Of a stretch of DNA of 64,000 nt, positions 38,614 through 62,492 are shown one piece after another. Each line of letters starts with the position of its first letter. The first letter of the stretch is position 1. A program made the position numbers and the translations under genes. Below the pieces are notes generated by a model. The model was not told where the DNA came from and ran no database searches. It saw only the letters and a list, made by a program, of their open reading frames with translations. The stretch is from a virus. The stretch lies in IMG/VR virus record IMGVR_UViG_3300021963_007714, positions 45,029-109,028 of that record. One strand, written 5' to 3'.

Positions 38614-38678
38614 TTTTAGTAATACACTAGGGGTACCTTATAGGGCCCCACTTATCTTACTTTTTAAGGAGAAATTTT

Positions 38679-39110: not shown

Positions 39111-39115
39111 TCAAT

Positions 39116-39132
39116 AGGGGGCTTGTCCCCCT
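39116..39132 (+). terminator. GC-rich hairpin between hsp20 and clpS, probable terminator
   Basis: AGGGGG-CTTGT-CCCCCT: six perfect pairs, followed by only a short T-containing tract. It is placed just before the late promoter for clpS. Confidence 0.6.
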
Positions 39133-39140
39133 TCATTAAC

Positions 39141-39148
39141 TATAAATA
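39141..39148 (+). promoter_or_regulatory. T4-type late promoter (TATAAATA), leaderless position
   Basis: Perfect octamer with exactly 5 nt to the clpS ATG at 39154. No ribosome binding site is present. Confidence 0.82.
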
Positions 39149-39153
39149 TTATT

Positions 39154-43601: not shown

Positions 43602-43609
43602 TATAAATA
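43602..43609 (+). promoter_or_regulatory. T4-type late promoter (TATAAATA) of the curli-like cluster
   Basis: Perfect octamer 20 nt before csgF, followed by TTAGGAGCG as ribosome binding site. It appears to drive the whole csgF-to-curlin-repeat block, since no other promoter or terminator is seen until 48.9 kb. Confidence 0.82.
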
Positions 43610-44103: not shown

Positions 44104-44104
44104 T

Positions 44105-47064: not shown

Positions 47065-48902
47065 AATACGGATATCGTTGGACTTCGGGTTTTGGCATTG
47101 TTATACTGGTGCTGTTCCTCTCCTTGGTTTATTTTTGGGCTGAACCTGCTCGTGCTGATGTCACTGATCTACAACTACCGGTAGGTAAAGTATTCGACAG
47201 TCAATGGAATGTAGGAGCCTGCACCCAATCAAGCGGAACCTGCTCAGTAAGCGGCCTTGTATCAAGTCAACTTTACAGTCCATCAGCAGGATGGAAAAGT
47301 TTTACCTCAGGTATGACTGTGCGTTTTAGTTATAATAACGGCAGTGTAGCAGGCAATCCCATACAGTTAGAATTATGGAACAGTAACAATACTCTTAACA
47401 CTGTGATGATTCCTTATGGTAGATTCATTGCTTTTGAAAATGGTGCCAATGAAGGTCGTCAATATATGTTTGTGGATAACACCACTTGGTATGGATATTA
47501 TATTAACCTACAAGCATCTACATCTACCACTAGTTCAACTTGGAATCATGGTGGCACTGCCACTACAGCACAATATCAAGCACTAACACAGGCCATGGTC
47601 ACTGCGCCACCGCCACCTGCTATGCCCACAAACAATGTAGCACAGACCAGTGGGTCAAGCCTATATCCCTATACCAGAGGAACCAGTAATCGTGGATTTA
47701 CAATACAATGGTGGGACTGCTGTGGCAGCGGTGGTTGGAATATGTCAAATGCTACTTGGAGTCAAGGCGGCACAGGCAGCGGCTTTTATGCTTGGGTCAC
47801 AGGATATCTCCGCTGGCCAGGTGCTCAAGACGGTGTAAGTAGAACCATATGGTTTAGAACAGGTTGGGATGACAAGCACAAATTGTTTATCAATGGCACA
47901 CAGATAACCAATGGTGATTGCTGTGCCTATGCCTATGGATCATATACTGCTAAACCTGGTGAATTTGTATATATTCATTTTTATACAGATAACAGTGGCG
48001 GTGGACCTACCAGTTGGGAAATAGCCTGGGATCCACAGGGTGACGGCACCTATGAAGTTATAGGTGGCGAAAGCGTAGGATTAGAATCAGGTGGTGGTTC
48101 AAGTTGGTATTCAAGCACAGAGACTGCCGCACAGATCAATCAAAAAAATTCAGATCGTGCTCGATTAGCAGCATTGGCACAGGGTAACAAATTGTATATC
48201 GCACAAAGCGGTAGTTACGCAGATGTTGATATTATACAAGAAGGTTCAACAAACTATATACAAGGACGTGGTGGAGTAGGCGATGCTCAACTCATAGGCA
48301 ATTATAATACACTGAGAATAAGACAAGGTGATGGATTAGGATCAGGTAAGAACCTAATCGAGTTTGATGTCAATGGAACAAGCAATACTGTGACACTGCT
48401 ACAAGGATGGAACGGAACTTGGCCCTCTGTCAGCAAGGATGGCATTGAAAGTGGCGGACACTACAGTGACCTTAAACTGACAGGCAACAATAACACAGTG
48501 ACATTTCAACAGGCCAACACAGGAGCGGCCAATTCCGGACACTATAACAGATCAGAGATCACAGGTGACACTAATACAGTGTTAGTAAGACAATTATGGG
48601 GCAACGCAGCCTATCACACTTTCTTCAGTAACATAACAGGTAATAGCAACAATGTAGATGTATTACAGGCAGGCGCAGCAGGCAAGTATATGGATCTTAC
48701 CTTGACAGGAAATGGACATACTGTAGTCGCGACCCAGGATGGTGCAGGTAGTCATAGAGCCACTATTAACCTAAGTAGAGTGCTGGGGTCATCCACATTA
48801 AATCTTACGCAGCAAGGGACAGTGGCACAACAATATAACATTACACAGGCCTGCGCTAATCTAAGTGGTTGCTCAGTGACAGTAACACAGGGCACACCAT
48901 AA
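47061..48902 (+). CDS. Large secreted protein with C-terminal curlin repeats
   Basis: 613 aa, ATGA overlap with the FecR gene. A signal anchor lies at 10-35 (FGIVILVLFLSLVYFWA). Residues about 40-350 form beta-rich, Trp- and Gly-rich domains resembling PA14-like or carbohydrate-binding modules (WFRTGWDDKHKLFINGTQIT, FVYIHFYTDNSGGG). From about 375, curlin-like repeats follow (KLYIAQSGSYADVDIIQEGS, LTGNNNTVTFQQANTG, ITGNSNNVDVLQAG, LNLTQQGTVAQQYNITQ). It looks like an adhesive head joined to an amyloid-forming tail, perhaps the nucleator or tip of the fibre. Confidence 0.82.
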   Translation: MKYGYRWTSGFGIVILVLFLSLVYFWAEPARADVTDLQLPVGKVFDSQWNVGACTQSSGTCSVSGLVSSQLYSPSAGWKSFTSGMTVRFSYNNGSVAGNPIQLELWNSNNTLNTVMIPYGRFIAFENGANEGRQYMFVDNTTWYGYYINLQASTSTTSSTWNHGGTATTAQYQALTQAMVTAPPPPAMPTNNVAQTSGSSLYPYTRGTSNRGFTIQWWDCCGSGGWNMSNATWSQGGTGSGFYAWVTGYLRWPGAQDGVSRTIWFRTGWDDKHKLFINGTQITNGDCCAYAYGSYTAKPGEFVYIHFYTDNSGGGPTSWEIAWDPQGDGTYEVIGGESVGLESGGGSSWYSSTETAAQINQKNSDRARLAALAQGNKLYIAQSGSYADVDIIQEGSTNYIQGRGGVGDAQLIGNYNTLRIRQGDGLGSGKNLIEFDVNGTSNTVTLLQGWNGTWPSVSKDGIESGGHYSDLKLTGNNNTVTFQQANTGAANSGHYNRSEITGDTNTVLVRQLWGNAAYHTFFSNITGNSNNVDVLQAGAAGKYMDLTLTGNGHTVVATQDGAGSHRATINLSRVLGSSTLNLTQQGTVAQQYNITQACANLSGCSVTVTQGTP

Positions 48903-48920: not shown

Positions 48921-50039
48921 ATGGCTTTATTAATTTCTGGAGGTGTAAGAATTATAGGCAGTACAATAAGTGCGTTACCCGTAACACCACCACCTCTGAA
49001 TATTGGAGAAAGTTTCGGTGGAGGTTATTACGCCGGGTTGTATTCAGCAAGTGGAGACGGAAATCCTACTCACTTTTTAGTTGTATCTCCAGGGTCATCT
49101 GAAACTACTTTATCTTGGAAGTCGTCTCTTACAAATACACCGGGTACAAGTAGTTTATTCGATGGTAGTGCTAACACTGCCGCTATGACAGATGCTTCTC
49201 ATCCTGCGGCAGAATACTGTGGTAATTTAACAACTGGAGGTTATAGTGATTGGTATCTACCTTCTAGATATGAGTTGGCTATAATATATTCAAACACAAG
49301 GGCATGGCCTGGCGATAATGTTACAACGTCCGGTATTAACCCTTACTCGGTATTACCCCGTACTTCTAATTACTCTCTTTATGTACCTGGAGAAGCCACA
49401 TATGCAACTGTATTTAGAAACGTAACAGCACAATTTAATGGAGGTCTTTATTGGACGAGCTCTTCATCTGCCTCACCTACTGCTTGGTTTATCAATACTA
49501 CTGATGGAACTGAAAGCGTTGATTTTAAAGATCAAAATTATACTGTTAGAGCTATAAGAAAAGTACCTTACTATACACAACAAACTGGAGTATCTTACGG
49601 ACCGTATAGATACTGGAGAATGTATATAACCAAGGTAAGGGAAAGTTCAAATCTATCTGATTGTCAAATGGCTGAATTCAAGTTTCAAGTAGATGGTATA
49701 GATAGAGATCTTTACGGAGCTACCTTAACAAATCCTGGAGGTGTGGTAACCGGTCAGGAAGAGGTTTATAGATTAATTGATAATTCAATGTTTTATAAAT
49801 TTTATAATGCAGGCCATTATACTAATGGGACCACTGATATAAGGTTTGATTTTGGGACTCCTGTAAGTTTTACCGGTTATCGATGGGCAACAGCTAATGA
49901 TGTAATATCAAGAGATCCAGAATCCTGGACTATACAGGCAGGTGCTACAACAGCAAGTTATACCACTATTCACACTGTAACAGGATATACAGCAACCACC
50001 GAACGAAACACTTGGCAAAATCCATGGACGTTCACCTAA
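48921..50039 (+). CDS. Adhesin-type virion protein with DUF1566-like and discoidin-like domains
   Basis: 372 aa. The N-terminus MALLISGGVRIIGS shares the ISGG-type anchor peptide with the proteins at 42169 and 50159. Residues about 30-210 follow DUF1566 (FGGGYYAGLYS, WYLPSRYELAIIYSNTRAW, GGLYWTSSS, YTVRAIRKV). Residues about 225-372 resemble an F5/8 type C (discoidin) domain (YRYWRMYITKVRESSNLSDC, QMAEFKF, GYRWATANDVISRDPESWTI). Both are binding modules. A tip adhesin is the likely role. Confidence 0.72.
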   Translation: MALLISGGVRIIGSTISALPVTPPPLNIGESFGGGYYAGLYSASGDGNPTHFLVVSPGSSETTLSWKSSLTNTPGTSSLFDGSANTAAMTDASHPAAEYCGNLTTGGYSDWYLPSRYELAIIYSNTRAWPGDNVTTSGINPYSVLPRTSNYSLYVPGEATYATVFRNVTAQFNGGLYWTSSSSASPTAWFINTTDGTESVDFKDQNYTVRAIRKVPYYTQQTGVSYGPYRYWRMYITKVRESSNLSDCQMAEFKFQVDGIDRDLYGATLTNPGGVVTGQEEVYRLIDNSMFYKFYNAGHYTNGTTDIRFDFGTPVSFTGYRWATANDVISRDPESWTIQAGATTASYTTIHTVTGYTATTERNTWQNPWTFT

Positions 50040-50052
50040 TAGATTAAATACA

Positions 50053-50133
50053 AACATAGGATCCTTACAGCAAACTATTTGGCCTTCTTAATCGCTACGT
50101 GTAGCGTGTAGATCTCCCAAAACGGATCCTGTT
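50053..50133. other. Nested inverted-repeat element in the spacer between adhesin genes
   Basis: Four colinear complementary pairs nest inside the spacer: AACA/TGTT (50053-56 with 50130-133), GGATCC/GGATCC (59-64 with 124-129), TTTGG/CCAAA (78-82 with 117-121) and CGCTA/TAGCG closing a CGTG loop (93-97 with 102-106). No T-run follows, so it is not an ordinary terminator. It ends where a TATAAATT late-promoter-like octamer begins. It could be a structured RNA end or processing site. Confidence 0.45.
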
Positions 50134-50140
50134 ATAAATT
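50133..50140 (+). promoter_or_regulatory. Late-promoter-like TATAAATT
   Basis: One mismatch at the last base of the late octamer, 18 nt before the ATG at 50159. The next gene has no ribosome binding site. Confidence 0.5.
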
Positions 50141-50158
50141 TTTAGCAATAATAACTCT

Positions 50159-51076
50159 ATGCAAATTACAGGCGGAATATTACTCGGTCAAGGCTTTAAC
50201 ATAAGTCCACCATTTTTTTACACAGTAGATGTGCTTATTTTAGGTGGAGGAGGAGGTGGAGGCGCCGGAAGTAATTGGCAAAACAATGCCAATGGCGGAG
50301 GTGGAGGCGCCGGCGGATACAGGTATATATCCAGTGTAACAGTACAATCTGGAACTGTGTATCCCATGATAGTAGGTCAGGGTGGTATAGGTTCGATTAC
50401 CACAGGAGGGGTAGGTGACATCAATGCCACTTATACTGAAGGAACTAGCGGAACAACAAGTACAGCCTTTGGATATGCTGCTGCAGGTGGTGGCCTTGGT
50501 GGTTCATATACTCCACTAAATGGTATTACCTCAGGTAGGAACGGAGGCTCTGGTGGAGGAGGTGGCGGAGCAGGTGGAGGTCAGCCTACAAGTGGCGGAA
50601 CAGGAAATATACCCGTTACTGTACCAAGCCAAGGAAATAATGGCGGTAGTAATTTTACCAATGATGCTAGCGGAGCCAGCGGTGGAGGAGGTGGTGCTAG
50701 CGCAGCAGGTGCTTCGGGTGCGGCAAATGTAGGAGGTAATGGAGGAGCAGGCAGATATCCGGATATTTGGTATGCTTCAACCTCTGGTGTTTTTGTCTGC
50801 GGTGGAGGAGGTGGTTCTGGATCAACCAATGGCACAGGTGGAGTAGGTGGCGGTGGCAATGCATCTAGAACACCAGGAGCTAACTGTGCCGGCACAGATG
50901 GTCTAGGTGGAGGCGGAGGTGGAACCGGTCTAGGATCAGGCAGAGGAGGTAGTGGAGGCAGAGGTAGAATTTTGGTTAGGTACCCTACTAATATTAGAGC
51001 TAGCGGAGGTACTATTGTTATATATAATGGGTATGTATACCATGACTTTACCTCATCAGATTTTTTTCAAGCTTAA
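50159..51076 (+). CDS. Glycine-rich adhesin-type virion protein
   Basis: 305 aa. The N-terminus MQITGGILLGQGFNIS carries the shared ITGG/ISGG anchor peptide. From about residue 22, VDVLILGGGGGGGAGSNWQ, then long runs of poly-Gly with GGAGGY and GAGG motifs, match the glycine-rich (polyglycine sandwich) domains of phage adhesins such as T-even gp38-like tips. It ends in GRGGSGGRGRILVRYPTN and a short C-terminal domain. Receptor recognition is the probable role. Antisense open frames here are composition artefacts. Confidence 0.78.
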   Translation: MQITGGILLGQGFNISPPFFYTVDVLILGGGGGGGAGSNWQNNANGGGGGAGGYRYISSVTVQSGTVYPMIVGQGGIGSITTGGVGDINATYTEGTSGTTSTAFGYAAAGGGLGGSYTPLNGITSGRNGGSGGGGGGAGGGQPTSGGTGNIPVTVPSQGNNGGSNFTNDASGASGGGGGASAAGASGAANVGGNGGAGRYPDIWYASTSGVFVCGGGGGSGSTNGTGGVGGGGNASRTPGANCAGTDGLGGGGGGTGLGSGRGGSGGRGRILVRYPTNIRASGGTIVIYNGYVYHDFTSSDFFQA

Positions 51077-51079
51077 AAA

Positions 51080-51376
51080 ATGAACAAAATTATATTAGGA
51101 TTTTTATGTTTTCCAATTACTGTTTGGGCACAACAAACTGCCTATAAAGCCGTGATGTGCGCAGATACTCAATCTGTCATTACTGCTCTTACTGGAAAGG
51201 ATTATAAAGAAAAACCATTCTGGATGGGCGTTGATCAAAAGGAACACACCTACAGCATATTCTATAACAAAGAAACCTCAGGCTGGACCATAATTGAGTT
51301 TAAAGGTAAGACTGCCTGTATATTGGGCGCAGGTGAAGAAAGCCAGTTAAGTCAAGAATTAAGTAGCAAACATTAA
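51080..51376 (+). CDS. Small secreted protein, unknown function
   Basis: 98 aa, 3 nt after the adhesin stop. The signal peptide MNKIILGFLCFPITVWAQQ is followed by a small domain with two Cys (VMCADTQSVITAL and KTACILGAGEES). It is periplasmic or secreted. Small exported proteins of this type occur in T4-like marine phages. No function can be assigned. Confidence 0.6.
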   Translation: MNKIILGFLCFPITVWAQQTAYKAVMCADTQSVITALTGKDYKEKPFWMGVDQKEHTYSIFYNKETSGWTIIEFKGKTACILGAGEESQLSQELSSKH

Positions 51377-51406
51377 AAAAACATAGATTTTATTTTTCAA
51401 ATAGTC

Positions 51407-51435
51407 TTGGCTAATGATATTAAATAGTGTATAAT
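51407..51435 (+). promoter_or_regulatory. Sigma70-type promoter
   Basis: TTGGCT (51407-51412), 17-bp spacer, TATAAT (51430-51435), 32 nt before the ATG at 51468. Confidence 0.8.
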
Positions 51436-51467
51436 CGTTGTTTAGGACAAATACACAAGGACACACT

Positions 51468-51626
51468 ATGAAGTATTTAATTGCTACGTTTCTAGCCTTT
51501 GGGCTACCAATTCTAATCGGCATTGGTTTATATTCTATCAAAGATCAGCACCATGCTGTAACCAATGTATGTAATGAACAATTTTACCCAGATCTCTGCG
51601 GTAAAAAGACCGACAAAGAATCTTAA
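51468..51626 (+). CDS. Small membrane protein
   Basis: 52 aa. The ATG at 51468 follows AAGGA; an in-frame ATG at 51438 lies too close to the -10 box. One N-terminal membrane helix (YLIATFLAFGLPILIGIGLY) precedes a short tail with two Cys (NVCNEQFYPDLCG), probably periplasmic. Function unknown. Confidence 0.6.
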   Translation: MKYLIATFLAFGLPILIGIGLYSIKDQHHAVTNVCNEQFYPDLCGKKTDKES

Positions 51627-51648
51627 TTTTTAACAGGAGACACAGACC

Positions 51649-52023
51649 ATGTTTGGACTTATTAAATTCCTCATTGCTCTATATCGTGCTTTTGTAGCAC
51701 TACTTGATCCCAATCGTAATGCTCTAAAAGATGCTCCACCACAGATCAAATATATCACCAGTGTGTTACTGGCCAGTTTTTGGGCAGTGGCATTTAGTCT
51801 GTGGGCAGGAGAACTCTATTTCATTGGCTATAATGTAATTGGACATGTAGCGGTAGTAAGTATGGCATTTGCCACTTGGTTGGTATTCCGTCACTTTAGA
51901 AAGACCTATACTAAAAGGTCGGAATACGATCTACTACGTGATCCTAACCGCTTGCCCAAGTGTTACGAACTAACTGATGAAGAGAGACTACAGGCCGCAC
52001 AGAAAGCAAGTTTTCAAAATTAA
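51649..52023 (+). CDS. Two-span membrane protein, unknown function
   Basis: 124 aa behind CAGGAGAC. Hydrophobic segments lie at about 1-18, 38-60 and 65-85 (VLLASFWAVAFSLWAGELYF, NVIGHVAVVSMAFATWLVF). A basic cytoplasmic tail follows. It is co-directional with the small membrane protein before it and the polymerase gene after it. Not recognised. Confidence 0.58.
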   Translation: MFGLIKFLIALYRAFVALLDPNRNALKDAPPQIKYITSVLLASFWAVAFSLWAGELYFIGYNVIGHVAVVSMAFATWLVFRHFRKTYTKRSEYDLLRDPNRLPKCYELTDEERLQAAQKASFQN

Positions 52024-52029
52024 ACCAAA

Positions 52030-52103
52030 TCCCTGTATCTCGGCATTAAATATTCCATATTATGGCAACTATAAAGGCACAACATGGAATCAAGATACAG
52101 GGA
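52030..52103 (+). promoter_or_regulatory. Long hairpin enclosing the start codon of the polymerase gene
   Basis: TCCCTGTATCT (52030-52040) is perfectly complementary to AGATACAGGGA (52093-52103). Nested inside, ATTCCAT (52052-52058) pairs with ATGGAAT (52084-52090), which contains the ATG at 52084. The AAGG Shine-Dalgarno-like sequence lies in the apical loop. The start codon would be hidden when folded, suggesting translational control. Confidence 0.6.
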
Positions 52104-53748
52104 ACTAGAACACCTCATCACTAAATTTACCAGGCAAATACCCGATACTGAAGAATACAACCAAAGACTAGCAGAAGAATTAGAACTAATAGCACAATTA
52201 GGTTTTGCCAAACACTTTCTAAGAGTTAGGGAAATACTGGATCTAACTCGTGACATTCCACATATAACCAGAGGATCAGCAGGCTCAAGCCTGATCTGTT
52301 ATCTAATGGCTATATCAGATGTAGATCCTGTAAAAGAACGCATACCCCTGGCAAGGTTTATGAATCCCAAGCGTGATGACTTACCTGACATTGACTTAGA
52401 CTTCCCTCACTGGCAACAGGAAACTGTTATGAACAGGATCTACAAAAGATGGCCAGGACAATCAGCCCGTGTTAGCAACTATGTAACCTATAAAGAAAAG
52501 TCTGCCATACGTGAGGCAGCTAAGAGATATGGTGCTAAGGGTAGACTACCTCGCAATATTGATCTCGATAAGGTTGTGCCCGAGTTCGCAGATGATGCTA
52601 AAAGATTAGTTAAAAAACTATTAGGTAAGAAACGCTGTATATCCAAGCACTGCGGTGGCATACTGATCTTCGATCGAGCGGTGCCTAAGAGTCTAATCAA
52701 TGCCGAAAATCAAATTCTACTGGACAAGTATGAAATTGAGGACCTAGAACACTTTAAGATAGATATACTTGCCAACAGAGGACTGAGTCAACTATGGGAA
52801 ATAGAACAGCGTTCATTGTCTGACTATCCTGAACATGATGAGGCTACCAGCGAATTATTGTGTCGTGGTGATATACTGGGTGTAACACAGGGTGAATCAC
52901 CTGCTATGAAGCGTCTGTTTCGTGCTATTCGTCCCAAGAGTAAAAGTGACTGCACTTTGGCCACTGCCCTAATTCGTCCAGTAGCTACACAAGGTCGTCG
53001 TAAGGCTTCATTCTTTCAAGACTGGTCTAAAGATGGCTTTCAAGATACCATAGTGTTCGAAGATGATGCCATAGAACTTATATCAGAAATTTTAGGCTGT
53101 GATAGTTATACCGCAGACATGTGGCGTCGTGCCTTTGCTAAAAAGAACGAAGAAAAGATGTTTGAGTTCCTACAACTAGTGGGCGATCATCCACGCAAAG
53201 ACGATGTGTTCATGGCGCTGAAAGAACTCAGTCACTTTGGTCTATGCCGTGCTCATGCTATAAATTTAGGTAGATTGATTTGGGCTTTAGCATACCAAAA
53301 GGCACATAATCCCGAAGCGTTCTGGCGTGCTGCTCTAAAACACTGTCAGGGATCATATGCTCGTTGGGTCTATTGGCAAGAGGCCAAGTTGGCTGGTGCT
53401 GTGCCTGCCATAGGTCAAGGTGGAGAAATTGAGGACCTAATGAAAACAGGTCGTTGGCGTTCAAAGAGTTTTATACCTGTATGCCAAGAAGTACGAAAGC
53501 CTGGGCAGGTAGAGTTCTGCGGCCTGGTAGCAAACTATCGTGTGTTTAAATCAAAGCCCAAAGAGTATATCACATTCGTCACACTGGGCACAGGCAACGG
53601 GCGTTATTTAGATGTGGTCCTACCTCATGCTGTGAGCCTACATGATCATCCTATCATATGGGGAACGGGCAAATTGGGGTATAAAAATAACACAGAGTAT
53701 GTTACAGTATACAAGCATAAAAGAATCAAACTACAAGAATTAGTATGA
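52084..53748 (+). CDS. Minimal C-family (DnaE-like) DNA polymerase
   Basis: 554 aa, half the size of bacterial DnaE (about 1160 aa). It lacks the N-terminal PHP domain and shows no C-terminal OB or tau-binding region. The palm is recognisable: RGSAGSSLICYLMAISDVDP, then FMNPKRDDLPDIDLDFP with catalytic Asp102 and Asp104, and FKIDIL with Asp227. Fingers-region matches include GESPAMKRLFRAI and GLCRAHAINLGRLIWALAYQ, followed by KAHNPEAFWRAAL. All three catalytic Asp of C-family polymerases are present. T4-like phages normally use a B-family polymerase, so this may be an accessory or translesion enzyme. Activity is unproven. Confidence 0.82.
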   Translation: MESRYRELEHLITKFTRQIPDTEEYNQRLAEELELIAQLGFAKHFLRVREILDLTRDIPHITRGSAGSSLICYLMAISDVDPVKERIPLARFMNPKRDDLPDIDLDFPHWQQETVMNRIYKRWPGQSARVSNYVTYKEKSAIREAAKRYGAKGRLPRNIDLDKVVPEFADDAKRLVKKLLGKKRCISKHCGGILIFDRAVPKSLINAENQILLDKYEIEDLEHFKIDILANRGLSQLWEIEQRSLSDYPEHDEATSELLCRGDILGVTQGESPAMKRLFRAIRPKSKSDCTLATALIRPVATQGRRKASFFQDWSKDGFQDTIVFEDDAIELISEILGCDSYTADMWRRAFAKKNEEKMFEFLQLVGDHPRKDDVFMALKELSHFGLCRAHAINLGRLIWALAYQKAHNPEAFWRAALKHCQGSYARWVYWQEAKLAGAVPAIGQGGEIEDLMKTGRWRSKSFIPVCQEVRKPGQVEFCGLVANYRVFKSKPKEYITFVTLGTGNGRYLDVVLPHAVSLHDHPIIWGTGKLGYKNNTEYVTVYKHKRIKLQELV

Positions 53749-54032
53749 AATCAAGACTACAGATATACACCAGTAAAGATGTCAAAGACCCCGCCTACAT
53801 AGTGGGAGAACGTGCCGCACTGAAAGAACTAGCACAGGCCTTAATTCAAGCAGCAGACAGCCCCGCAGGTTTTCAAACTGTAAACTTATACAAGGGCAAC
53901 GGGCACGACTATGAAATCTTTGTTACTAAGAATGTCAAAGAAGCAGAATGGCAGGACATGCCCTCTACAGCAGACAAGATGAATTTTATTTCTGAGTATC
54001 TTGATCTTAAAAATTCCTTATTAAACAAATAG
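53745..54032 (+). CDS. Small protein coupled to polymerase gene
   Basis: 95 aa, ATGA overlap with the polymerase gene. Segments YIVGERAALKELAQALIQAA and TVNLYKGNGHDYEIFVTKNV suggest a small alpha/beta protein. Coupling hints at a shared role with the polymerase, for example as a partner, but no domain is recognisable. Confidence 0.58.
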   Translation: MKSRLQIYTSKDVKDPAYIVGERAALKELAQALIQAADSPAGFQTVNLYKGNGHDYEIFVTKNVKEAEWQDMPSTADKMNFISEYLDLKNSLLNK

Positions 54033-54066
54033 TTGTAATAATTCTGTAATCATTAAATGCTAATAT
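54033..54066 (+). promoter_or_regulatory. Pho-box-like promoter upstream of phoX
   Basis: TTGTAAT-AATT-CTGTAAT (54033-54050) matches two PhoB half-sites (CTGTCAT) in direct orientation with the canonical 4-nt AT-rich gap. Eleven nt after the box starts a -10-like TAATAT (54061-54066), the distance expected for PhoB-dependent promoters. Three of 14 conserved bases differ from E. coli. Confidence 0.68.
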
Positions 54067-54109
54067 AAATGTAAATATTACTAACAATCATTTACATAGG
54101 AGAAAGCAG

Positions 54110-56317
54110 ATGATTACAGAGACTGAGAATACGTCTAATAATCCACACATCAGCGATGTGATTAAAGCGATGTTAGGCAATCCAAATCGCCGAAGTTTCC
54201 TAAAAGGAAGTTCGGCTTTTTTTACGGCTGCTACAGCAGCAACAATAGCAGGTTGTGCCAGTAGTGATGATGATCTACTACCGACACCGAGCACATTGAG
54301 TTTCGAAGCAGTTCCTAAGAACACATTTGACAAGGTCACACTACCCCCAGGTTATCAATTCACAGTGCTACATGGCACAGGAGATAGGCTAGTCAGTAGC
54401 ATTCCTGCCTATTCAAACAAGGGTGTAGAGACAGATGATTGGAGTCAGCGAGTGGGTGACCATCACGATGGCATTGAATTATTTCATATTGATGCCAATG
54501 GTAAGTATACCACACAGATGACTGGTCGTGCTGTGTTGGCAATGAATCACGAAAGTTCAGCAGACGCACATTTTTTCCACCCCAATGGACAGACCAGTAA
54601 CGGTCAAAATGGTAAAAAGTTTGATCAGTTTGGTCAATGGGATTTGGGTGTTCGTCCCGGATTAGAAGTATTAAAAGAAATCAATCACCACGGTGTCAGT
54701 CTCGTGGAGATTAACAAGGGTAGCACAGGTTGGACATACAAGGTAGATAGCGGATTAAATAGAAGGGTTACAGCACAAACTCCCGTGCGAATCAGCGGAC
54801 CGGCCGCAGACATGGCTAACATAAAAGGTTTAATGTCTACCAAGTTTGATCCAACAGGTGCTACCGCTCGCGGCACATTAAACAACTGCGGCACAGGGTC
54901 TACACCTTGGGGAACCATGCTGACCTGTGAAGAAAACTGGGCTGTATATACTCATATGCCCAAAGGCAGCAATCCAGTAGATGCCAGACTGGTTCAAACT
55001 CGCAAGCGTTATGGCGTAGCAGCAGAACCACTTTCCGGTAGTGCCACAGCCAGCACCAGTCAAGGATGGCATACTCCTTCAGACATGCCCGACACAGGTC
55101 TGCGTTTTAGTCGCTGGGATACCAGTGCTCGTGGAGCCACAGCACAGGAAGACTTTCGCAATGAACCACATACTTTTGGTTACAATGTAGAAATTGATCC
55201 TCTTAATCCCAATGCTCAACCAGTGAAGCGTGTGGCCATGGGTCGTTTCGCACACGAAGCCGCTGTATATGGTAAACTGGAAGCAGGTAAGCCTGTGGTG
55301 TTTTACATGGGCTGCGATAGTCGTAATGAGTATATCTATAAGTTTGTCAGTGCTCAACCTTGGAATCCTGCTGATGTGGGCGGCGGTATGGCTGCTGGTG
55401 ACAAATATCTCAACGAAGGTAAATTGTATGTGGCCAAGTTTAACAATGATGGAACAGGCACATGGATTGAATTGAGTATTGCCAATCCTGCTATTGCCAA
55501 CTATGCCACATTCAAATTTAATAATCAAGCAGAAATATTTGTATTCACTCGCATAGCCGCTGATGCTGTAGGTGCTACCAAAATGGATCGTCCAGAGTGG
55601 GGTGCTGTAAATCCTGCCAATGGCGAAATCTATTTTGCCCTGACCAACAACTCAGCCAGCAATCGCACTCCAATGACCACAGATGGTGCCAATCCAAGAA
55701 GTTATGCTGATCCCGATGGCAACAAGCGTACGGGCAACCCCAATGGACATATTATTCGTTGGCGTGAGACTGCTACAGGATTTCAATGGGATATCTTCTT
55801 GTTTGGTTCAGAAGAAGACAATGCTGCCAGCAACATTTCAAAACTCACTGCCAAGAATTCGTTTAGTAGCCCAGACGGATTGTGGTTTAGCAAGGCCACA
55901 GGTCTTTGCTGGATACAGACAGATGATGGTGCGTATACAGATGAAGTACATAATCAACTGTTAGTGGCCATTCCTGGTCGGGTAGGAGATGGTGGAGCTA
56001 AAACCATTACCAATACACTAAGCGGTGCTACTAAAGATCAGGCCACATTTGTGGGTGCTGAATTAGGCGAAACAAAATTGCGTCGATTCCTAACTGGTCC
56101 TGCTGGTTGTGAAATCACCGGTATCGCTGAATCCGCAGATGGACGCACTATATTTGTCAATGTTCAGCATCCAGGCGAGGACACAGAAGCCACTTTCTGG
56201 AAAGGATCTGCTCCACAAAGTCAATGGCCAGCCAATCAAGGCTATGGACCACAAGGGCGTCCTCGTTCAGCCACTTTGGTAATCACCAAGGTTGACGGCG
56301 GCTTAATCGGCCTATAA
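54110..56317 (+). CDS. phoX: PhoX-family alkaline phosphatase (DUF839), Tat-exported
   Basis: 735 aa behind AGGAGAAAGCAG. A Tat signal (NPNRRSFLKGSSAFF, twin Arg at 27-28) leads to TIAGC, a possible lipobox at Cys49. The DUF839 body includes TLPPGYQFTVLHGTGDRL, WSQRVGDHHDGIELF, VLAMNHESSADAHFF, TPWGTMLTCEENWAVY, RFAHEAAVY and YMGCDSRNEYIYKFV, then PDGLWFSKATGLCWIQTDDG. PhoX enzymes release phosphate from organic esters outside the cytoplasm using calcium and iron. With PstS downstream and a Pho box upstream it forms a phosphate-scavenging operon. Phage PhoX is unusual; cyanophages are known to carry PhoA and PstS. Confidence 0.92.
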   Translation: MITETENTSNNPHISDVIKAMLGNPNRRSFLKGSSAFFTAATAATIAGCASSDDDLLPTPSTLSFEAVPKNTFDKVTLPPGYQFTVLHGTGDRLVSSIPAYSNKGVETDDWSQRVGDHHDGIELFHIDANGKYTTQMTGRAVLAMNHESSADAHFFHPNGQTSNGQNGKKFDQFGQWDLGVRPGLEVLKEINHHGVSLVEINKGSTGWTYKVDSGLNRRVTAQTPVRISGPAADMANIKGLMSTKFDPTGATARGTLNNCGTGSTPWGTMLTCEENWAVYTHMPKGSNPVDARLVQTRKRYGVAAEPLSGSATASTSQGWHTPSDMPDTGLRFSRWDTSARGATAQEDFRNEPHTFGYNVEIDPLNPNAQPVKRVAMGRFAHEAAVYGKLEAGKPVVFYMGCDSRNEYIYKFVSAQPWNPADVGGGMAAGDKYLNEGKLYVAKFNNDGTGTWIELSIANPAIANYATFKFNNQAEIFVFTRIAADAVGATKMDRPEWGAVNPANGEIYFALTNNSASNRTPMTTDGANPRSYADPDGNKRTGNPNGHIIRWRETATGFQWDIFLFGSEEDNAASNISKLTAKNSFSSPDGLWFSKATGLCWIQTDDGAYTDEVHNQLLVAIPGRVGDGGAKTITNTLSGATKDQATFVGAELGETKLRRFLTGPAGCEITGIAESADGRTIFVNVQHPGEDTEATFWKGSAPQSQWPANQGYGPQGRPRSATLVITKVDGGLIGL

Positions 56318-56339
56318 ACTAGTAGCAAGGAGATCAATG

Positions 56340-56426
56340 ATGGCAAAACTAAAACAATGTTGGTGTTGGGTATGTGAAAAACTTCGTATGTGTTATTGCG
56401 AATGTAAGACTGCCTGCCGTTGTTGA
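56340..56426 (+). CDS. Cys-rich 28-aa peptide, metallothionein-like composition
   Basis: Starts at ATG 56340, 7 nt after AAGGAG (an ATG at 56337 is an alternative). Eight of 28 residues are Cys, arranged CWCWVC, then CYCECK and a final CRC. The spacing resembles metal-binding clusters but fits no named family I can confirm. It lies between phoX and pstS, in the same transcription unit. Metal handling for PhoX is one speculative role. Confidence 0.55.
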   Translation: MAKLKQCWCWVCEKLRMCYCECKTACRC

Positions 56427-56458
56427 TCTCAATCTAATTAAACTCAAAAGGAAATTAA

Positions 56459-57472
56459 ATGAAACGATTCTTAATGGCCACAGCGGCCGCTTTATTCTCT
56501 GTTGCTGTTCAAGCAGCAGAAATCACAGGGGCTGGTGCTACCTTTCCCTATCCTATCTATGCCAAATGGGCCGAAGCATATAACAAGGCCACTGGCAATA
56601 CCTTGAACTATCAAAGTATTGGTAGTTCAGGTGGTATTCGTCAAATCAACAACAAAACAGTATCATTTGGAGCCAGTGATGCTCCAGTAAAAGGAGAAGA
56701 TCTTGATAAACTTGGACAAGTTCAATTCCCTGCTATCATCGGTGGCACAGTGCCTGTTATCAATCTTGATGGCTTCAAGGCAGGTGAACTTCGCATCACA
56801 GGACCTGTCATGGCAGAAGTTTTTATGGGAAACATTACCAAATGGAATGACCCAAAACTACAAGCATTAAATCCAGGTAAAAAGTTACCAGACATGAACA
56901 TCACTGTGGTTCATCGTGCTGATGGTTCTGGCACTACTTTCAATTGGACCGACTACTTGACTGTGATCAGCCCAGAGTGGGAAAAGCGTGTGGGCCGTGG
57001 AGCAGCAGTAAAATGGCCTGCTACCAGTTCAGTTGGTGGCAAGGGTAACGAAGGTGTTGCTGCCAATGTAAATAGAATTAAAGGCAGTATTGGTTATGTT
57101 GAATATGCCTATGTTAAGAAAAATCTAATGAATTATATGTTGTTACAAAACAAGGCTGGTAACTTTGTTGCCCCTGATGATACAACTTTCGCAGCAGCCG
57201 CAGCGGGAGCAGATTGGTTCTCAGTTCCAGGAATGGGCTTGAGTATTGTAAATCAGGGCGGCAAGGATACTTGGCCTGTGACTACTGCTTCGTTTATAAT
57301 TATGTATAAGGAACCAGCAGACAAGCGAGCCAGCCAAGAAGTTATCAAGTTTTTTGATTGGGCATTCAAGAACGGTGCTAAGTTAAGCGCAGAACTTGAT
57401 TATGTTCACTTACCAGATAAACTACAGGCTGATATTCGCAGTCGTGTTTGGAGTCAAATTAAAAATCAATAG
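56459..57472 (+). CDS. pstS: Periplasmic phosphate-binding protein PstS
   Basis: 337 aa. The signal peptide ends at AVQA, followed by the PstS start AEITGAGATFPYPIYAKWAE. Phosphate-site motifs are visible: SIGSSGGIRQI, FGASDAPVKGEDL, VVHRADGSGTTFNWTDYL and SVGGKGNEGVAANV. It binds phosphate for the host PstCAB transporter, none of whose subunits are in this window. PstS is a well-known phage accessory gene in cyanophages. The sequence is of proteobacterial type, in line with a heterotrophic host. Confidence 0.95.
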   Translation: MKRFLMATAAALFSVAVQAAEITGAGATFPYPIYAKWAEAYNKATGNTLNYQSIGSSGGIRQINNKTVSFGASDAPVKGEDLDKLGQVQFPAIIGGTVPVINLDGFKAGELRITGPVMAEVFMGNITKWNDPKLQALNPGKKLPDMNITVVHRADGSGTTFNWTDYLTVISPEWEKRVGRGAAVKWPATSSVGGKGNEGVAANVNRIKGSIGYVEYAYVKKNLMNYMLLQNKAGNFVAPDDTTFAAAAAGADWFSVPGMGLSIVNQGGKDTWPVTTASFIIMYKEPADKRASQEVIKFFDWAFKNGAKLSAELDYVHLPDKLQADIRSRVWSQIKNQ

Positions 57473-57479
57473 GTGACGT

Positions 57480-57695
57480 ATGAGTGACGCAGCGGGTGGA
57501 TTTTTAGCAGTATTTGAACAAAGAGTAGGACAACTTAGAAAACGTCTTCGAGATGAATTAGACAAAGACAAACCCATCCGCTGTCGTAGAACACTTAAAA
57601 AAGTTATAAAAGAAATAAAAGAATGGGAAGATGTTCTACATCAACATCGTAAGGACACTAAACGGTGTCCGCATTGTGGGGAGAAGTTAGAATGA
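57480..57695 (+). CDS. Small coiled protein with zinc ribbon end
   Basis: 71 aa, 7 nt after pstS with a GGTGA-type site. The helical, basic body (VGQLRKRLRDELDKDKP, RTLKKVIKEIKEWEDVLHQH) ends in RCPHCGEKLE, a single CxxC half-site. It could dimerise around zinc. Part of the phosphate operon by position. Function unknown. Confidence 0.6.
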   Translation: MSDAAGGFLAVFEQRVGQLRKRLRDELDKDKPIRCRRTLKKVIKEIKEWEDVLHQHRKDTKRCPHCGEKLE

Positions 57696-57793
57696 CTACA
57701 GAACTTTGGTTGTTTGTATTAGCAGTATTTGCCATCACCGCCGCCATTGTTATACCTAATTTGATAACATGGCGACGTAGGCGAAAAGATTAA
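57692..57793 (+). CDS. Tiny single-span membrane protein
   Basis: 33 aa, starting in an ATGA overlap. One hydrophobic helix (ELWLFVLAVFAITAAIVIP) ends in an Arg/Lys cluster (WRRRRKD), a positive-inside anchor. It is the last gene of the phosphate operon and converges by 4 nt with the reverse-strand gene. Function unknown. Confidence 0.5.
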   Translation: MTTELWLFVLAVFAITAAIVIPNLITWRRRRKD

Positions 57794-57957
57794 CTCATTC
57801 CTAATGCTACGATAACAGACACAACCAATATTAAAAATACAATGAAACCTGACCTGTCCTTGTGACCACCATGGACAGGATCTACATCCCGAAAATCAGG
57901 CTTAGTTGTATTTTTCTTTTGTGCTGCTATCAGGGCTTGAAGTAGAACTGGCTTCAT
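57790..57957 (-). CDS. Small membrane protein overlapping terC
   Basis: 55 aa from ATG 57957 behind AAGGAAA, overlapping the terC 3' end by 56 nt in another frame. The charged middle (KPDFRDVDPVHGGHKDRSG) precedes a hydrophobic helix (FIVFLILVVSVIVALGM). The ribosome binding site and clear membrane helix support it, but overlap this long lowers confidence. Confidence 0.45.
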   Translation of the reverse strand: MKPVLLQALIAAQKKNTTKPDFRDVDPVHGGHKDRSGFIVFLILVVSVIVALGMS

Positions 57958-58630
57958 TTTTTGATTTCCTTATGCGTGTTCTATAATATTGCTTACAGGT
58001 TAAAACAATTGCTAGAACCCAAGGTAGTCCCATTTCGGACCAATCATGCAGGGGATCTATATACTTATCAACAAAGGGTTCTGCTACAATCATCTTAAAG
58101 GCCACAGCATATAATACAAATGCGCCGATAAAGATTGTGTCAGGATGCTTTTCTAATATACGAGCAACAATTGTACTACCAAACAAGATAATAGGAACAC
58201 TGACAAGAAGTCCAAATATAATTAATATCCAGTTTCCATTAGCAGCACCAGCAATAGCTAGGGCATTATCCAAGCCCATAACAGCATCTGCTAACACAAT
58301 AGTTGCCATAGCGCCCCAAAATGTGTCACTGGCCTTAACATCCTTATGATCATCACTGCCTGTGGTTAAACGCCAGGCAATCCATATAAGCATAAGACCA
58401 CCTATAAACCTAAGACCAGGAATCATAAGCAAATAGGTAAGTGCTGCTACACAGGCAAATCGAACAGCTACAGCACCAAATGTTCCCCATATCATGGCTC
58501 GCTTTCTTAAATTTTCGGGCAACTTATTAGCAGCCATGGCAATAACTAAGGCATTCTCACCACCTAAAACTACATCTATTAAAATAATAGCCAATAAGGC
58601 CCATAAAAATTCAAATGATAATATTTCCAT
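57902..58630 (-). CDS. TerC/YjbE-family integral membrane protein
   Basis: 242 aa with about seven membrane helices. The two paired acidic motifs of the TerC family are present: IDVVLGGENALVIAMA near residue 20 and LADAVMGLDNALAIAGA near 115. Members have been linked to manganese or calcium export and tellurite resistance, and are thought to serve metal loading of exported enzymes. A Ser/Thr-rich tail follows. Phage-borne copies are unusual. One possible link is metal supply for exported PhoX, which is inference. Confidence 0.9.
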   Translation of the reverse strand: MEILSFEFLWALLAIILIDVVLGGENALVIAMAANKLPENLRKRAMIWGTFGAVAVRFACVAALTYLLMIPGLRFIGGLMLIWIAWRLTTGSDDHKDVKASDTFWGAMATIVLADAVMGLDNALAIAGAANGNWILIIFGLLVSVPIILFGSTIVARILEKHPDTIFIGAFVLYAVAFKMIVAEPFVDKYIDPLHDWSEMGLPWVLAIVLTCKQYYRTRIRKSKNEASSTSSPDSSTKEKYN

Positions 58631-58665
58631 AAATTGTCCTGTACAAAATCATTTTATTTAATAAA

Positions 58666-58687
58666 AAAAGGCCCCTAAGGGCCTTTT
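58666..58687 (-). terminator. Terminator for reverse-strand winged-helix gene
   Basis: AAAAGGCCC-CTAA-GGGCCTTTT, a 9-bp perfect stem with runs of T on either strand. It separates the gene at 58706-58975 from terC and could work in both directions. Confidence 0.88.
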
Positions 58688-58705
58688 AGTTTGAACTGGA
58701 TCGAA

Positions 58706-58975
58706 TTACAGACCAAGTTGAAGAGCACGATAACCTGCAGCAATCAAACGACGGCTGGGTTGTCCCATAACGTATTCAGTAACTTGAACACCATTGCCTG
58801 CTTTGCGGCTGTTGGCATAAACAGCAAAACCAGCCTGACGGATACGGCTTGCTTCTGCTGAAATGTTCTTAATGCCAAAACGCTTTTCTGCCTGTGCAGG
58901 AGTAAGTTTCTCACCTGACTTAAGTGCGGTGAAAAGTTTATGGGTCTTAGTGCCTTCATTAATAGAATATAACAT
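58706..58975 (-). CDS. Small winged-helix-like phage protein
   Basis: 89 aa from ATG 58975, chosen for AGAGGAAAT just upstream; an upstream in-frame extension would cross the promoter. TKTHKLFTALKSGEKLTPAQ, then AEKRFGIKNISAEASRIRQAG and FAVYANSRKAGNG, resemble winged-helix DNA-binding proteins abundant in T4-like cyanophages. A role as a small transcriptional regulator is plausible. It has its own sigma70-type promoter and terminator, so it is an independent unit. Confidence 0.75.
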   Translation of the reverse strand: MLYSINEGTKTHKLFTALKSGEKLTPAQAEKRFGIKNISAEASRIRQAGFAVYANSRKAGNGVQVTEYVMGQPSRRLIAAGYRALQLGL

Positions 58976-59021
58976 ATTATTTCCTCTTAGATGTTTATAC
59001 TGCTTCTTAGCAGTTAGAGCA

Positions 59022-59050
59022 AGTATAGCAGTATAATTATAGTAGGTCAA
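59022..59050 (-). promoter_or_regulatory. Sigma70-type promoter, reverse strand
   Basis: On the reverse strand TTGACC (59050-59045), 17-bp spacer, TATACT (59027-59022). The hexamers are identical to those of the promoter at 35005-35033. Confidence 0.85.
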
Positions 59051-59065: not shown

Positions 59066-59073
59066 AATAAATA
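59066..59073 (+). promoter_or_regulatory. T4-type late promoter variant (AATAAATA)
   Basis: AATAAATA ending 7 nt before the cyclase ATG at 59081. It predicts a nearly leaderless late transcript. Confidence 0.6.
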
Positions 59074-59080: not shown

Positions 59081-61135
59081 ATGAGAAAGATATTATTAAA
59101 TCCATATTGGGCCCTATTAACCCTCGTAGCCGTGTTAGCACTGAGATTTTTTGATCCCAGTTTTGTTGAGTCGGTTAGACTACGCTATTTTGATCAACTT
59201 ATAACCAGTCAACCAAAGGTTGAAGTTCCTGTTCATACTGTTAACATTGATGAACAGACTTTGGAAAAATTAGGTCAATGGCCCTTTCCAAGAGGCGACT
59301 ATGCTAAAATGATCAACGATCTATACCAGCGTAACGCAGGACTTGTTGTATTCAATGTGTTAATGCCCGAATTTGATCGTTTCAAAGAGGACAAAGAATT
59401 AGCACAATATCTGAAGTCTCACCCAGTTGTTCTTCCTATATTAGGGCATACCAAAGACCGTAATGCCACACAGCCACCGCATACACAGGTAGTTGGACAA
59501 GATCCACAGGGCAAGGTGGTTGAATATCCAGGAGTTATAAGTTCAGTGGCAATAATAACAGGTCAGGCCACAGGTTATGGGGTAGTTAATACCTTTCCGG
59601 AAATAGATGGTGTTGTTCGTCGTATGCCCCTGGTAATTGCCAGCCAAGGTAAGTTACATCCAGCATTGGCTTTAGAAACACTGCGAGTAGCAGCACAAGA
59701 TCCTCGTGTTCAAATAAAGATAGGAGACATTGGTGTAGAGGCTTTGCGTGTGCCCAAGATAGGCAAGATACCGACAGATCCATTGAGTCGTATATGGATT
59801 GATTGGTCAGCACAGCCTAAAGAACATAGTTTTATGTCGTTGCCCGATGACTTCAAAGGTGAAATAGTCATTGTGGGTTTATCAGCAGCGGGCTTGGCTA
59901 ATCCTGTGGCCACAGCCAGAGGAGAAGTATGGCCTCACTTTTTACAGGGCACGGTGTTAGGAACACTAACTACACAGAGCCACATACAGAGACCCGACTG
60001 GGCAGATGCCGCCGAATTAGGTGCTATTGCTGTATTTGGCATTTTAATTATATTCTTATCAAGGTGGGTCTATGTCGGTATCGGATTTTATCTTATTCTT
60101 GCTGGTTCATGCGTGGCAGGCAGCATGTACGGGTATAGTAATTATAGGTGGCTTATTGATGCTACTTTGCCTACCCTTAGTATTCTTCTTGTAGCACTAC
60201 ATGCCTATACAGTGAAGTTTATTTCAGAATTCCTACAGAAACAGCAGATACGCAAACAGTTTCAAAGTTATCTATCACCAGATCTTGTGGCCAAACTGAT
60301 AAAAGATCCTAGCCTACTTAAACTGGGCGGTGAAGAAAAAGAACTCTCAATCATGTTTACAGATGTGCGCGGCTTTACATCAATATCAGAACACTATGGC
60401 AAAGATGTTCAAGGTCTTACAAAAATCATGAATCGTTATATGACTGCCATGACACGCAAGATATTAGAAAATCATGGCACATTAGACAAGTATATTGGTG
60501 ATGCTCAAATGGCGTTTTGGAATGCTCCATTAGATGAAACTATTCACTGTAAGGAAAGCGTCAAGGCAGCACTGGAAATGTTAGAAGATCTAAAGGTATT
60601 CAATGATGAAATTACCAAAGAAGGAATCCCTGCGTTTGGCATGGGCATTGGCATTAACACTGGGGTTGTTGTTGTCGGCAATATGGGCAGTGAGCAACGC
60701 TTTGACTATACTTGTTTGGGTGACGCAGTTAATTTGGCCAGCCGCTTAGAAGGTCAGAGCAAGAACTATGGCGTCCTATTGGTCATTGGTCCTGTAACAG
60801 AAAGCAGATTAGAGGGCACAGCATTTAGCCTACCTCTAGATTGTATTGCGGTCAAGGGCAAACACGAAGGTGTAAACATTTTTACAGCGTTTCATAATCC
60901 ACCTGAAAATCTCAAGGCACAATGGCTAGCAGACAAAGAACGTCATGTTGAGATGTTGGGTTATTATCGTGCTCAACAATGGAACAAGGCCTTGAAAGCA
61001 GTAGAAGCACTTAAAGGAAAATTCAATGGACAAATGGATCACTACTATGAACTATGGACCGAACGCATTCATGAAATGGCCAGCGCTGGATTACCCGCAG
61101 ATTGGGATGGCGTCTTTAGAGCAACCAGCAAGTGA
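59081..61135 (+). CDS. Membrane class III adenylate cyclase with CHASE2 sensor
   Basis: 684 aa. A membrane anchor (about 8-24) is followed by a CHASE2 extracytoplasmic domain to about 290 (LRYFDQLITSQPKVEVPVHT, VNIDEQTLEKLGQWPFPRGD). Three membrane helices occupy about 305-385, then a class III cyclase domain about 415-610. Catalytic residues visible: metal Asp428 (FTDVRGFTS) and Asp474, purine-selecting Lys470 (DKYIGDAQ) with Thr544, and transition-state Asn551 and Arg555 (GDAVNLASRLEG). The set fits ATP-to-cAMP conversion. A late promoter precedes it. CHASE2 cyclases are common in bacteria but not expected in phages, so recent transfer from a host is likely. Confidence 0.9.
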   Translation: MRKILLNPYWALLTLVAVLALRFFDPSFVESVRLRYFDQLITSQPKVEVPVHTVNIDEQTLEKLGQWPFPRGDYAKMINDLYQRNAGLVVFNVLMPEFDRFKEDKELAQYLKSHPVVLPILGHTKDRNATQPPHTQVVGQDPQGKVVEYPGVISSVAIITGQATGYGVVNTFPEIDGVVRRMPLVIASQGKLHPALALETLRVAAQDPRVQIKIGDIGVEALRVPKIGKIPTDPLSRIWIDWSAQPKEHSFMSLPDDFKGEIVIVGLSAAGLANPVATARGEVWPHFLQGTVLGTLTTQSHIQRPDWADAAELGAIAVFGILIIFLSRWVYVGIGFYLILAGSCVAGSMYGYSNYRWLIDATLPTLSILLVALHAYTVKFISEFLQKQQIRKQFQSYLSPDLVAKLIKDPSLLKLGGEEKELSIMFTDVRGFTSISEHYGKDVQGLTKIMNRYMTAMTRKILENHGTLDKYIGDAQMAFWNAPLDETIHCKESVKAALEMLEDLKVFNDEITKEGIPAFGMGIGINTGVVVVGNMGSEQRFDYTCLGDAVNLASRLEGQSKNYGVLLVIGPVTESRLEGTAFSLPLDCIAVKGKHEGVNIFTAFHNPPENLKAQWLADKERHVEMLGYYRAQQWNKALKAVEALKGKFNGQMDHYYELWTERIHEMASAGLPADWDGVFRATSK

Positions 61136-61139
61136 TATC

Positions 61140-61262
61140 ATGGACACACAAATAAAATTCTTTGTCACTGCTTGGTTTTGGCCCTACTTTGTCATGGGCA
61201 ATTTAGACAGTTGGCAAAAACTTGGTATAACACTAAACGGAGCAAGACCAATAAGGTGCTAA
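61140..61262 (+). CDS. Small hydrophobic protein between the two cyclases
   Basis: 40 aa, 4 nt after the first cyclase and directly abutting the second. The sequence (TQIKFFVTAWFWPYFVMGNL, then DSWQKLGITLNGARPIRC) has one weakly hydrophobic segment. No strong ribosome binding site is present, and translation would rely on coupling. It may be a real linker gene or a spacer. Confidence 0.4.
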   Translation: MDTQIKFFVTAWFWPYFVMGNLDSWQKLGITLNGARPIRC

Positions 61263-62492
61263 ATGGACAAAAAATTAACCACCATACTGTGTAGTGATGT
61301 TATAGGATACAGTCGTATGATGGGAGAGAATGAACATCTAACTCTCCAAAAATTAGATCAATGTAGACAGATCATTGATCCCAGTATAGCAAAATATAAT
61401 GGCCGTATTTTTAACACAGCAGGTGATGCTGTGTTGGCAGAGTTTGCCAGTCCCACTGACGCTGTAAAATGTGCTGTAGACATTCAAAACTCAATCAACA
61501 AACTTAATACGGACATGCGTTGGCGTATTGGCCTACATCTAGGCGAAGTCTATGCCTACGGTGATAATCTCATGGGCGACACCGTGAACATTGCTGCTCG
61601 TATAGAAAGCACTGCTGACTTGGGAGGTGTCTGCTTTAGCAGTCAGGTCTTTGATGCTATCAGTGGCAAGGTTACCATGGATATAGAATGGCGAGGACCA
61701 CAGTCATTTAAGAATATTAAAGATCCTATCAAAATCTATGCTGTAAAAATAGCAGGTGCCCAAAAAAACCCCAATGTAGTTCATAAAGAAACTGTGAAAT
61801 ATAGCAAGGAACAATTGATCAAGAGTGTGATAAATGACAAACCTGCCGTAGGTAAAACTCTACAAGATGCTCAAAATCTTAAACGTGATCGTCAGTTTGG
61901 TCCTGCTGTTCGTGTGTTAATGTGGCGTATTACAAAAAAGTGCGGAGCCAGTCTAAATGAACTGTTAGATATGAGCCAAAAAGAATTAGTGCCTGTAGAA
62001 CTAAGGCATGTTGTAGTGGCCATACTCAGTGAATATTGTAAAGGTGTAGACAGTGATCGAGCCATGTTAATTTACAAATTACTACAAGGACCGTTAGGTG
62101 TTCATCGTAGCCTTGGTTTACAGTTTTTAAAACAAGCGGCCAAGACCAATCCCGAAGCGCAGATGGAATATAGTTCTACAATTATGGAAGATCCACACAG
62201 CAGCCAAAATGAAATTACTGATGCTGTAGAACAGTTGGTCACTATGGCTCGAAGAAAGAGTCAACCTGCTATGTTGAAGTTATGTGACTACTATAATAAG
62301 GTGGGTGAAAAACATCAACAGTTTTTATGGTTGTGGGTATTGAGAGGACTGTTTGAACCTTCGGCACAGAACAAACTTCAACTGTTAATGAATACAATTA
62401 GCAAGACTGATTTTACTAATTGGAAAATAGAAGGGGAATCGCTGTTAGATGAAATTAAATTTAAGAACGATCCTGGTAACTATGGTTATTAA
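61263..62492 (+). CDS. Soluble class III nucleotide cyclase with helical repeat region
   Basis: 409 aa. The N-terminal cyclase domain (1-165) has Asp12 (LCSDVIGYSRMMG), Asp55 (FNTAGDAVLAEF), and Asn109 and Arg113 (GDTVNIAARIES). The Lys that usually selects adenine is replaced by Asn51, and the partner position is Asn102, so substrate specificity is uncertain. Residues about 195-400 are helical, in the style of Sel1/TPR repeats. This domain pairing occurs in bacterial cytoplasmic cyclases. It lies directly behind the CHASE2 cyclase. Confidence 0.82.
   Translation: MDKKLTTILCSDVIGYSRMMGENEHLTLQKLDQCRQIIDPSIAKYNGRIFNTAGDAVLAEFASPTDAVKCAVDIQNSINKLNTDMRWRIGLHLGEVYAYGDNLMGDTVNIAARIESTADLGGVCFSSQVFDAISGKVTMDIEWRGPQSFKNIKDPIKIYAVKIAGAQKNPNVVHKETVKYSKEQLIKSVINDKPAVGKTLQDAQNLKRDRQFGPAVRVLMWRITKKCGASLNELLDMSQKELVPVELRHVVVAILSEYCKGVDSDRAMLIYKLLQGPLGVHRSLGLQFLKQAAKTNPEAQMEYSSTIMEDPHSSQNEITDAVEQLVTMARRKSQPAMLKLCDYYNKVGEKHQQFLWLWVLRGLFEPSAQNKLQLLMNTISKTDFTNWKIEGESLLDEIKFKNDPGNYGY

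Follow-up and report, generated by a model that had tools for sequence, protein, structure and literature searches.

A curli-module CHASE2 cyclase followed by a second class III cyclase in a phage record

Introduction

Why a phage should carry two class III nucleotide cyclase genes in a row is the question raised by a stretch of 64,000 nucleotides (hereafter the window), which comprises bases 45029-109028 of the 109,028-base IMG/VR record IMGVR_UViG_3300021963_007714 and shares its right end. An initial annotation, made from the sequence alone, described there two tandem class III cyclases with intact catalytic residues, the first (cyclase A) ending 4 nt before a small gene that separates it from the second (cyclase B), and this description holds.

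An adenylate cyclase has been described as part of the phage T8SS (curli) module in both podo- and myophages, together with data on the co-distribution of the module and on expression (PMC9599517), and two other papers discuss phage curli genes without a cyclase (PMC7029224, PMC9004378). The purposes proposed for curli in phages are the capture of siblings, exclusion of superinfecting phages and the timing of lysis (PMC7029224, PMC9599517, PMC9004378). Beyond these curli papers, our search of the literature found nothing on phage-encoded cyclases.

Results

Cyclase A carries a CHASE2 domain and a complete catalytic set

The gene of cyclase A (59081..61135, + strand) is an ORF of 684 amino acids that matches the PHROG family phrog_35576 over its full length (769 bits), residues 1-684 aligning on the 681-position profile, and its Pfam domains are CHASE2 (PF05226, E 2e-38) and Guanylate_cyc (PF00211, E 8e-19). 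An N-terminal TM is followed by CHASE2 at residues ~14-322, more TMs and a class III catalytic domain at residues ~420-596, and the hydrophobic stretches are located at residues 3-29 and 307-381. The residues of a class III adenylyl cyclase are all present, that is, the two metal Asp (D428 and D474), the Lys of the base-selecting pair (K470) with Thr at its Asp/Thr position (T544), the Asn (N551) and the Arg (R555). This set suggests that A would make cAMP from ATP. Our reading turned up no biochemical work on a phage-borne member, and none of the enzymes in this large family of phage cyclases is known to have been assayed.

D428, K470 and D474 are invariant in the family of A (83 of 83 sequences). 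Twelve of the 83, including Melnitz, carry Ser at 551 in place of the catalytic Asn and Asp at 544 in place of Thr, and cyclase output may therefore not be essential in all phages. The loci of this subclade are L015, L017, L021, L022, L025, L027, L031, L033, L036, L037, L041 and L088.

A small hydrophobic protein is encoded between the two cyclases

The small gene (61140..61262, + strand) has 40 codons, starts 4 nt past the stop of A, and its own stop abuts the ATG of cyclase B at 61263 with no gap. The hydrophobic 40-aa product contains the motif [YW][FY]WPYF[VL]xGNxD and has no Pfam or PADLOC match. In the copy of locus L007, ATA replaces the ATG of the window. Using a profile built from seven copies we detected the gene in the window and in seven other records, one of them with a weaker match (E 9e-9); the matches always lie within 0.9 kb downstream of A and on the same strand, with none elsewhere in 30,207 ORFs, and five of these records have A and the small gene without B. 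A wider scan gave 14 loci, of which nine are beside A and five are without it, so this small phage gene lies often, not always, behind A, and the idea that it is a strict partner of A was rejected. The copies of the window and of L281-L285 represent a family of small hydrophobic WPYF-motif proteins in phages that is partly independent of the cyclase. At locus L006, an ORF with a NUMOD3 motif (10098-10781 of that locus) separates the small gene from cyclase A; it is of the homing-endonuclease type, with a start that by eye looks like GIY-YIG.

Among the three copies of the block, dN/dS is 0.07-0.10 for A, 0.06-0.10 for the small gene and 0.03-0.08 for B, ratios that are rough because several of the dS estimates approach or exceed unity. 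All three genes appear, from these ratios, to be under strong purifying selection.

Cyclase B is a soluble class III cyclase with a predicted helical tail

Cyclase B (61263..62492, + strand; 409 aa; PF00211, E 8e-9) comprises a soluble class III cyclase domain (residues ~1-161) and a predicted alpha-solenoid tail (residues ~182-400), and its gene shares 32 nt with that of a convergent fatty-acid desaturase. B retains D12 and D55 as metal Asps as well as the Asn/Arg pair (N109/R113), and the AlphaFold model (mean pLDDT 86, pTM 0.51) has the class III fold plus the helical solenoid, its best Foldseek matches being Rv1900c (1ybu) and 3mr7; in residues and in fold, B is thus a class III nucleotide cyclase. 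In L202, as in each of the three copies, the base-selecting positions are occupied by N51 and N102 in place of the canonical ATP-selecting K/D pair, and we therefore do not assign ATP specificity to B. Cellular and phage relatives have N/D, K/D or G/N at these positions; the pocket of B is therefore best seen as a variant within a diverse group, whose substrate is not readable from sequence.

Profile searches yielded relatives of B that are up to 48% identical, the cellular ones covering mainly the catalytic domain, and a scan of genome contigs with B alone gave no close cellular donor. The tail is common to two more phage records, L202 (46% over residues 1-403) and L203 (39% over residues 1-398), both short and neither with a CHASE2 gene. 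B is also not a bifunctional LipJ (NF058673), as it scores 80.6 bits against a curated cut-off of 800 and matches in the cyclase domain only.

The block belongs to the phage

Phage-family genes for structural proteins, RNR and exonuclease fill the window, phage genes are found on both sides of the A-small gene-B block, and the ORF at the extreme right has a counterpart in another phage record (54% identity over 81 aligned positions). The same gene order, with its neighbours, is also present in IMGVR_UViG_3300021963_007890 and IMGVR_UViG_3300047457_001050; together with the record of the window, these are the three of 49 records, many of them fragments, in which a PF00211 search found two cyclases. 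PHROG families match A, PstS and TerC, no tRNA was found in the window, and an Rfam search gave no matches. The block is phage DNA, the product neither of chance nor of an assembly join. The initial annotation had considered that host DNA might have been joined to the phage contig by error, and a prophage boundary could have had the same effect. PhoX, PstS and TerC are indeed cellular-type genes and the block is close to the end of the record, but its conservation in two other records and its phage-gene flanks led us to reject host contamination or a prophage edge, which we judge to have hardly any chance of being the explanation.

Several other genes in the window deserve mention. A chaperone run encodes DnaK (HSP70, E 6e-259), Hsp20 and ClpS (36718-39456), and heme oxygenase (PF01126) followed by a ferredoxin-dependent bilin reductase (PF05996) forms a two-gene bilin pathway (39453-40644). 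The proposal that the phage could also alter (p)ppGpp had been drawn from an HD hydrolase and a metallophosphoesterase. The latter is indeed encoded at 33655-34509 (PF00149). The supposed HD hydrolase is only part of a 1129-aa endolysin-like protein that matches phrog_990 at residues 512-678 and has no RelA/SpoT or HD Pfam match at E 0.001, and for this reason the (p)ppGpp link was abandoned.

Cyclase A is linked to a phage curli module

The window also contains a curli cluster that the initial annotation had missed. Pfam identifies, all on the + strand, csgF (PF10614, 43630..44103), csgG, the curli outer-membrane pore (PF03783, E 2e-49; 44093..45016), a CsgB/CsgA-like curlin-repeat protein (PF07012, 45034..45900) and a FecR-domain protein (PF04773, 45910..47064). 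The next gene (47061..48902, + strand) has no Pfam match and was therefore assigned by similarity and position as the counterpart of the second curlin-repeat protein of HTVC008M and Melnitz; in related loci, its matches fall on the same stretches. The sequence from there to A (48921..59050) is a cargo region with unassigned ORFs, a DNA polymerase III alpha fragment, PhoX, PstS, TerC (- strand) and a winged-HTH protein (- strand). The polymerase fragment (52084-53748; 554 aa) has only the NTPase and finger domains and has homologues in L006, L007 and L026, and PhoX alkaline phosphatase followed by PstS (54110-57472) is a phosphate-acquisition pair kept in L006 and L007. PstS or TerC homologues are also found near A in L023, L027, L030, L032 and L036, which suggests a cargo hotspot.

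Relatives of A are encoded in at least 595 stretches of IMG/VR contigs, and relatives are annotated in four Melnitz-type Methylophilales phage records and in Pelagibacter phage HTVC008M. The initial view that even one such enzyme would be very unusual in a phage does not survive these numbers or the published description (PMC9599517): the CHASE2 cyclase is widespread in aquatic T4-like phages, and only the paired arrangement is unusual. In the cultured phages Melnitz and HTVC008M the gene run is csgF-csgG-curlin-FecR-curlin repeat-cyclase, with the cyclase last, the FecR and second curlin proteins of HTVC008M being annotated only as hypothetical and matched here by similarity. The fetched stretch includes csgG in 68 of the 80 loci of A. 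Where at least 7 kb of upstream sequence was available, csgG and FecR were both present in 61 of 63 loci, and the two exceptions are the nearest relatives of the window, which have the same layout, with csgG ~15-18 kb upstream of A. FecR is beside CHASE2 in only 5 of 69 bacterial loci, and a general FecR-CHASE2 partnership is therefore not supported; we dropped this cellular adjacency as independent support for FecR as a partner.

In the window, A and the csgF-csgG-curlin-FecR genes are ~12 kb apart, and in L006 and L007 the distance exceeds the 8 kb flank, whereas in L008, L012, L017 and most other loci no more than a few kb lie between A and the curli genes. A is inverted relative to these genes in L024, L071-L073 and L081, and in L071-L073 and L081 it is also several kb away from them. 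Since the order is broken in clear members, adjacency is a common, not a defining, trait of curli-module cyclases, and the membership of A therefore rests on its full-length homology to the curli-module cyclase, CHASE2 and class III domain included, and on the co-occurrence of csgF, csgG, curlin repeat and FecR in the same phage.

Putative late-promoter elements precede csgF and cyclase A

The element TATAAATA, a T4-type late promoter sequence that may function as such here, is found 28 nt before csgF (43602..43609, + strand), and AATAAATA, with one mismatch to it, is located 15 nt before the ATG of A (59066..59073, + strand) and likewise before A in L006 and L007. The eight copies of TATAAATA in the window are by number no more than expected by chance, but seven of them are within 30 nt before an ORF start (17866, 19438, 30874, 39141, 41791, 43602 and 48909), at distances of 12-13 or 28-30 nt; if T4 spacing holds, the short-spacing class would give leaderless late mRNAs. 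Of 59 upstream stretches, 7 contain TATAAATA, compared with 0.4% of random 45-nt stretches. TAAATA is found within 24 nt upstream of 25 of 63 distinct cycA starts, at 10-14 nt in 24 of these, and in 0.95% of random 24-mers. These elements are consistent with T4-type late transcription of both csgF and A, which are probably expressed in this way.

Discussion

The reading that we favour, at a probability of roughly 55%, is that A is the CHASE2 cyclase of the curli module and tunes the cell surface and curli through late cAMP, with B as an added second source. A would be anchored in the inner membrane and, according to the predicted topology, expose CHASE2 to the periplasm, and it would be expressed late, like the curli genes. 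A change in the state of the envelope would then lead A to convert ATP to cAMP, which could tune the surface programme of the infected cell and curli export late in infection; no gene for a cAMP receptor was identified among the window proteins scanned. One small clade of phages would have gained the second, soluble class III cyclase behind A. Because it is co-oriented with A and directly downstream, B is probably co-expressed, and it may add cytosolic cyclic nucleotide under the gating of its alpha-solenoid tail. A more elaborate version, in which the block is a two-input cyclic-nucleotide circuit giving the phage its own second messenger late in infection, strikes us as unlikely; here the CHASE2 cyclase would work with a small membrane partner, and the Asn/Asn pocket of B would make a different cyclic nucleotide.

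Cyclic AMP could also serve other ends. A and B might raise it simply to reprogramme host metabolism through Crp-family regulators, under stress for carbon or phosphate, and have no tie of their own to curli. This possibility, which we hold to be the less probable one though worth serious attention, would fit the distance of A from the curli genes in this clade, where it is only a few genes away from PhoX and PstS, and the inverted loci described above; against it stands the near-constant company of csgG and FecR (61 of 63), for which a gene of general metabolism would have no use. It is unlikely that A, B or both lack catalytic activity and are regulators kept for binding. In one natural subclade of A the transition-state Asn is gone, and the base pair of B is unusual, but in the window each of the two enzymes retains its two metal Asps together with the Asn/Arg pair, and selection on them appears strongly purifying.

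The initial annotation had further suggested that the cyclic nucleotide could feed or confuse nucleotide-based anti-phage signalling, so that A and B would provide counter-defence or a decoy against Pycsar- or CBASS-type immunity. PADLOC models of PycC match A (E 5e-26) and B (E 5e-8), and the base pair of B differs from the canonical K/D; such matches, however, are expected for any class III cyclase. The pyrimidine-selecting residues are F100/R142/Q144 in EaPycC and F60/K104/F109 in AnPycC (PMC11224242). The corresponding positions of A, counted out from the metal Asps and not taken from aligned structures, are F426, K470 and the region of G473, without a Q/K selector. Of the PycC set, A shares only the Phe that stands two positions ahead of its first metal Asp; it has instead the ATP-type K470/T544. 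In B the corresponding positions are C10, N51, A53 and L58, the first three at positions where PycC enzymes have an aromatic residue and R/Q/K selectors. No effector or receptor gene, PycTM and PycTIR included, is adjacent, the other neighbours being the desaturase and the winged HTH. On this residue check we rejected Pycsar identity for A and B, and the counter-defence idea, which gained no positive support, seems very improbable. A phage with two intact cyclases, one with an altered base pocket, offers a good test case for whether these phages actively set cyclic-nucleotide levels, and the natural Asn-to-Ser subclade, with the cultured Melnitz in it, a built-in comparison.

Comparison with known systems

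A and B have the class III fold in common with the PycC enzymes of Pycsar, and PADLOC models match, but the base-selecting residues of PycC and its effector are absent. The catalytic domain of A aligns with the class IIIb adenylyl cyclases of the CyaB/CyaC type (3r5g, 1wc1) and like them has K and T at the base-selecting positions; unlike them, A has an N-terminal CHASE2, membrane anchors and a phage context. The catalytic domain of B finds its best matches, in both sequence and fold, in class IIIc Rv1900c/LipJ (1ybu) and 3mr7. Both B and the aligned motif of LipJ have N at the Lys position, whereas at the second base position B has N, unlike the D of Rv1900c/LipJ. B also has no hydrolase domain, and its helical tail has so far been found only in phage records.

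The closest system is that of the phage T8SS/curli adenylate cyclases (Melnitz, HTVC008M, pelagiphages; phrog_35576; PMC9599517), which like A combine CHASE2 with a class III domain. A is 38% identical to the Melnitz and HTVC008M cyclases over most or all of its length, the same module genes share its phage, and A is the adenylate cyclase already published for phage curli (T8SS) modules. Unlike the typical phage curli cyclase, it lies ~12 kb from the curli genes and has a second cyclase behind it. What is new is cyclase B and the A-small gene-B block, a modest variant of this system present in three related phage records.
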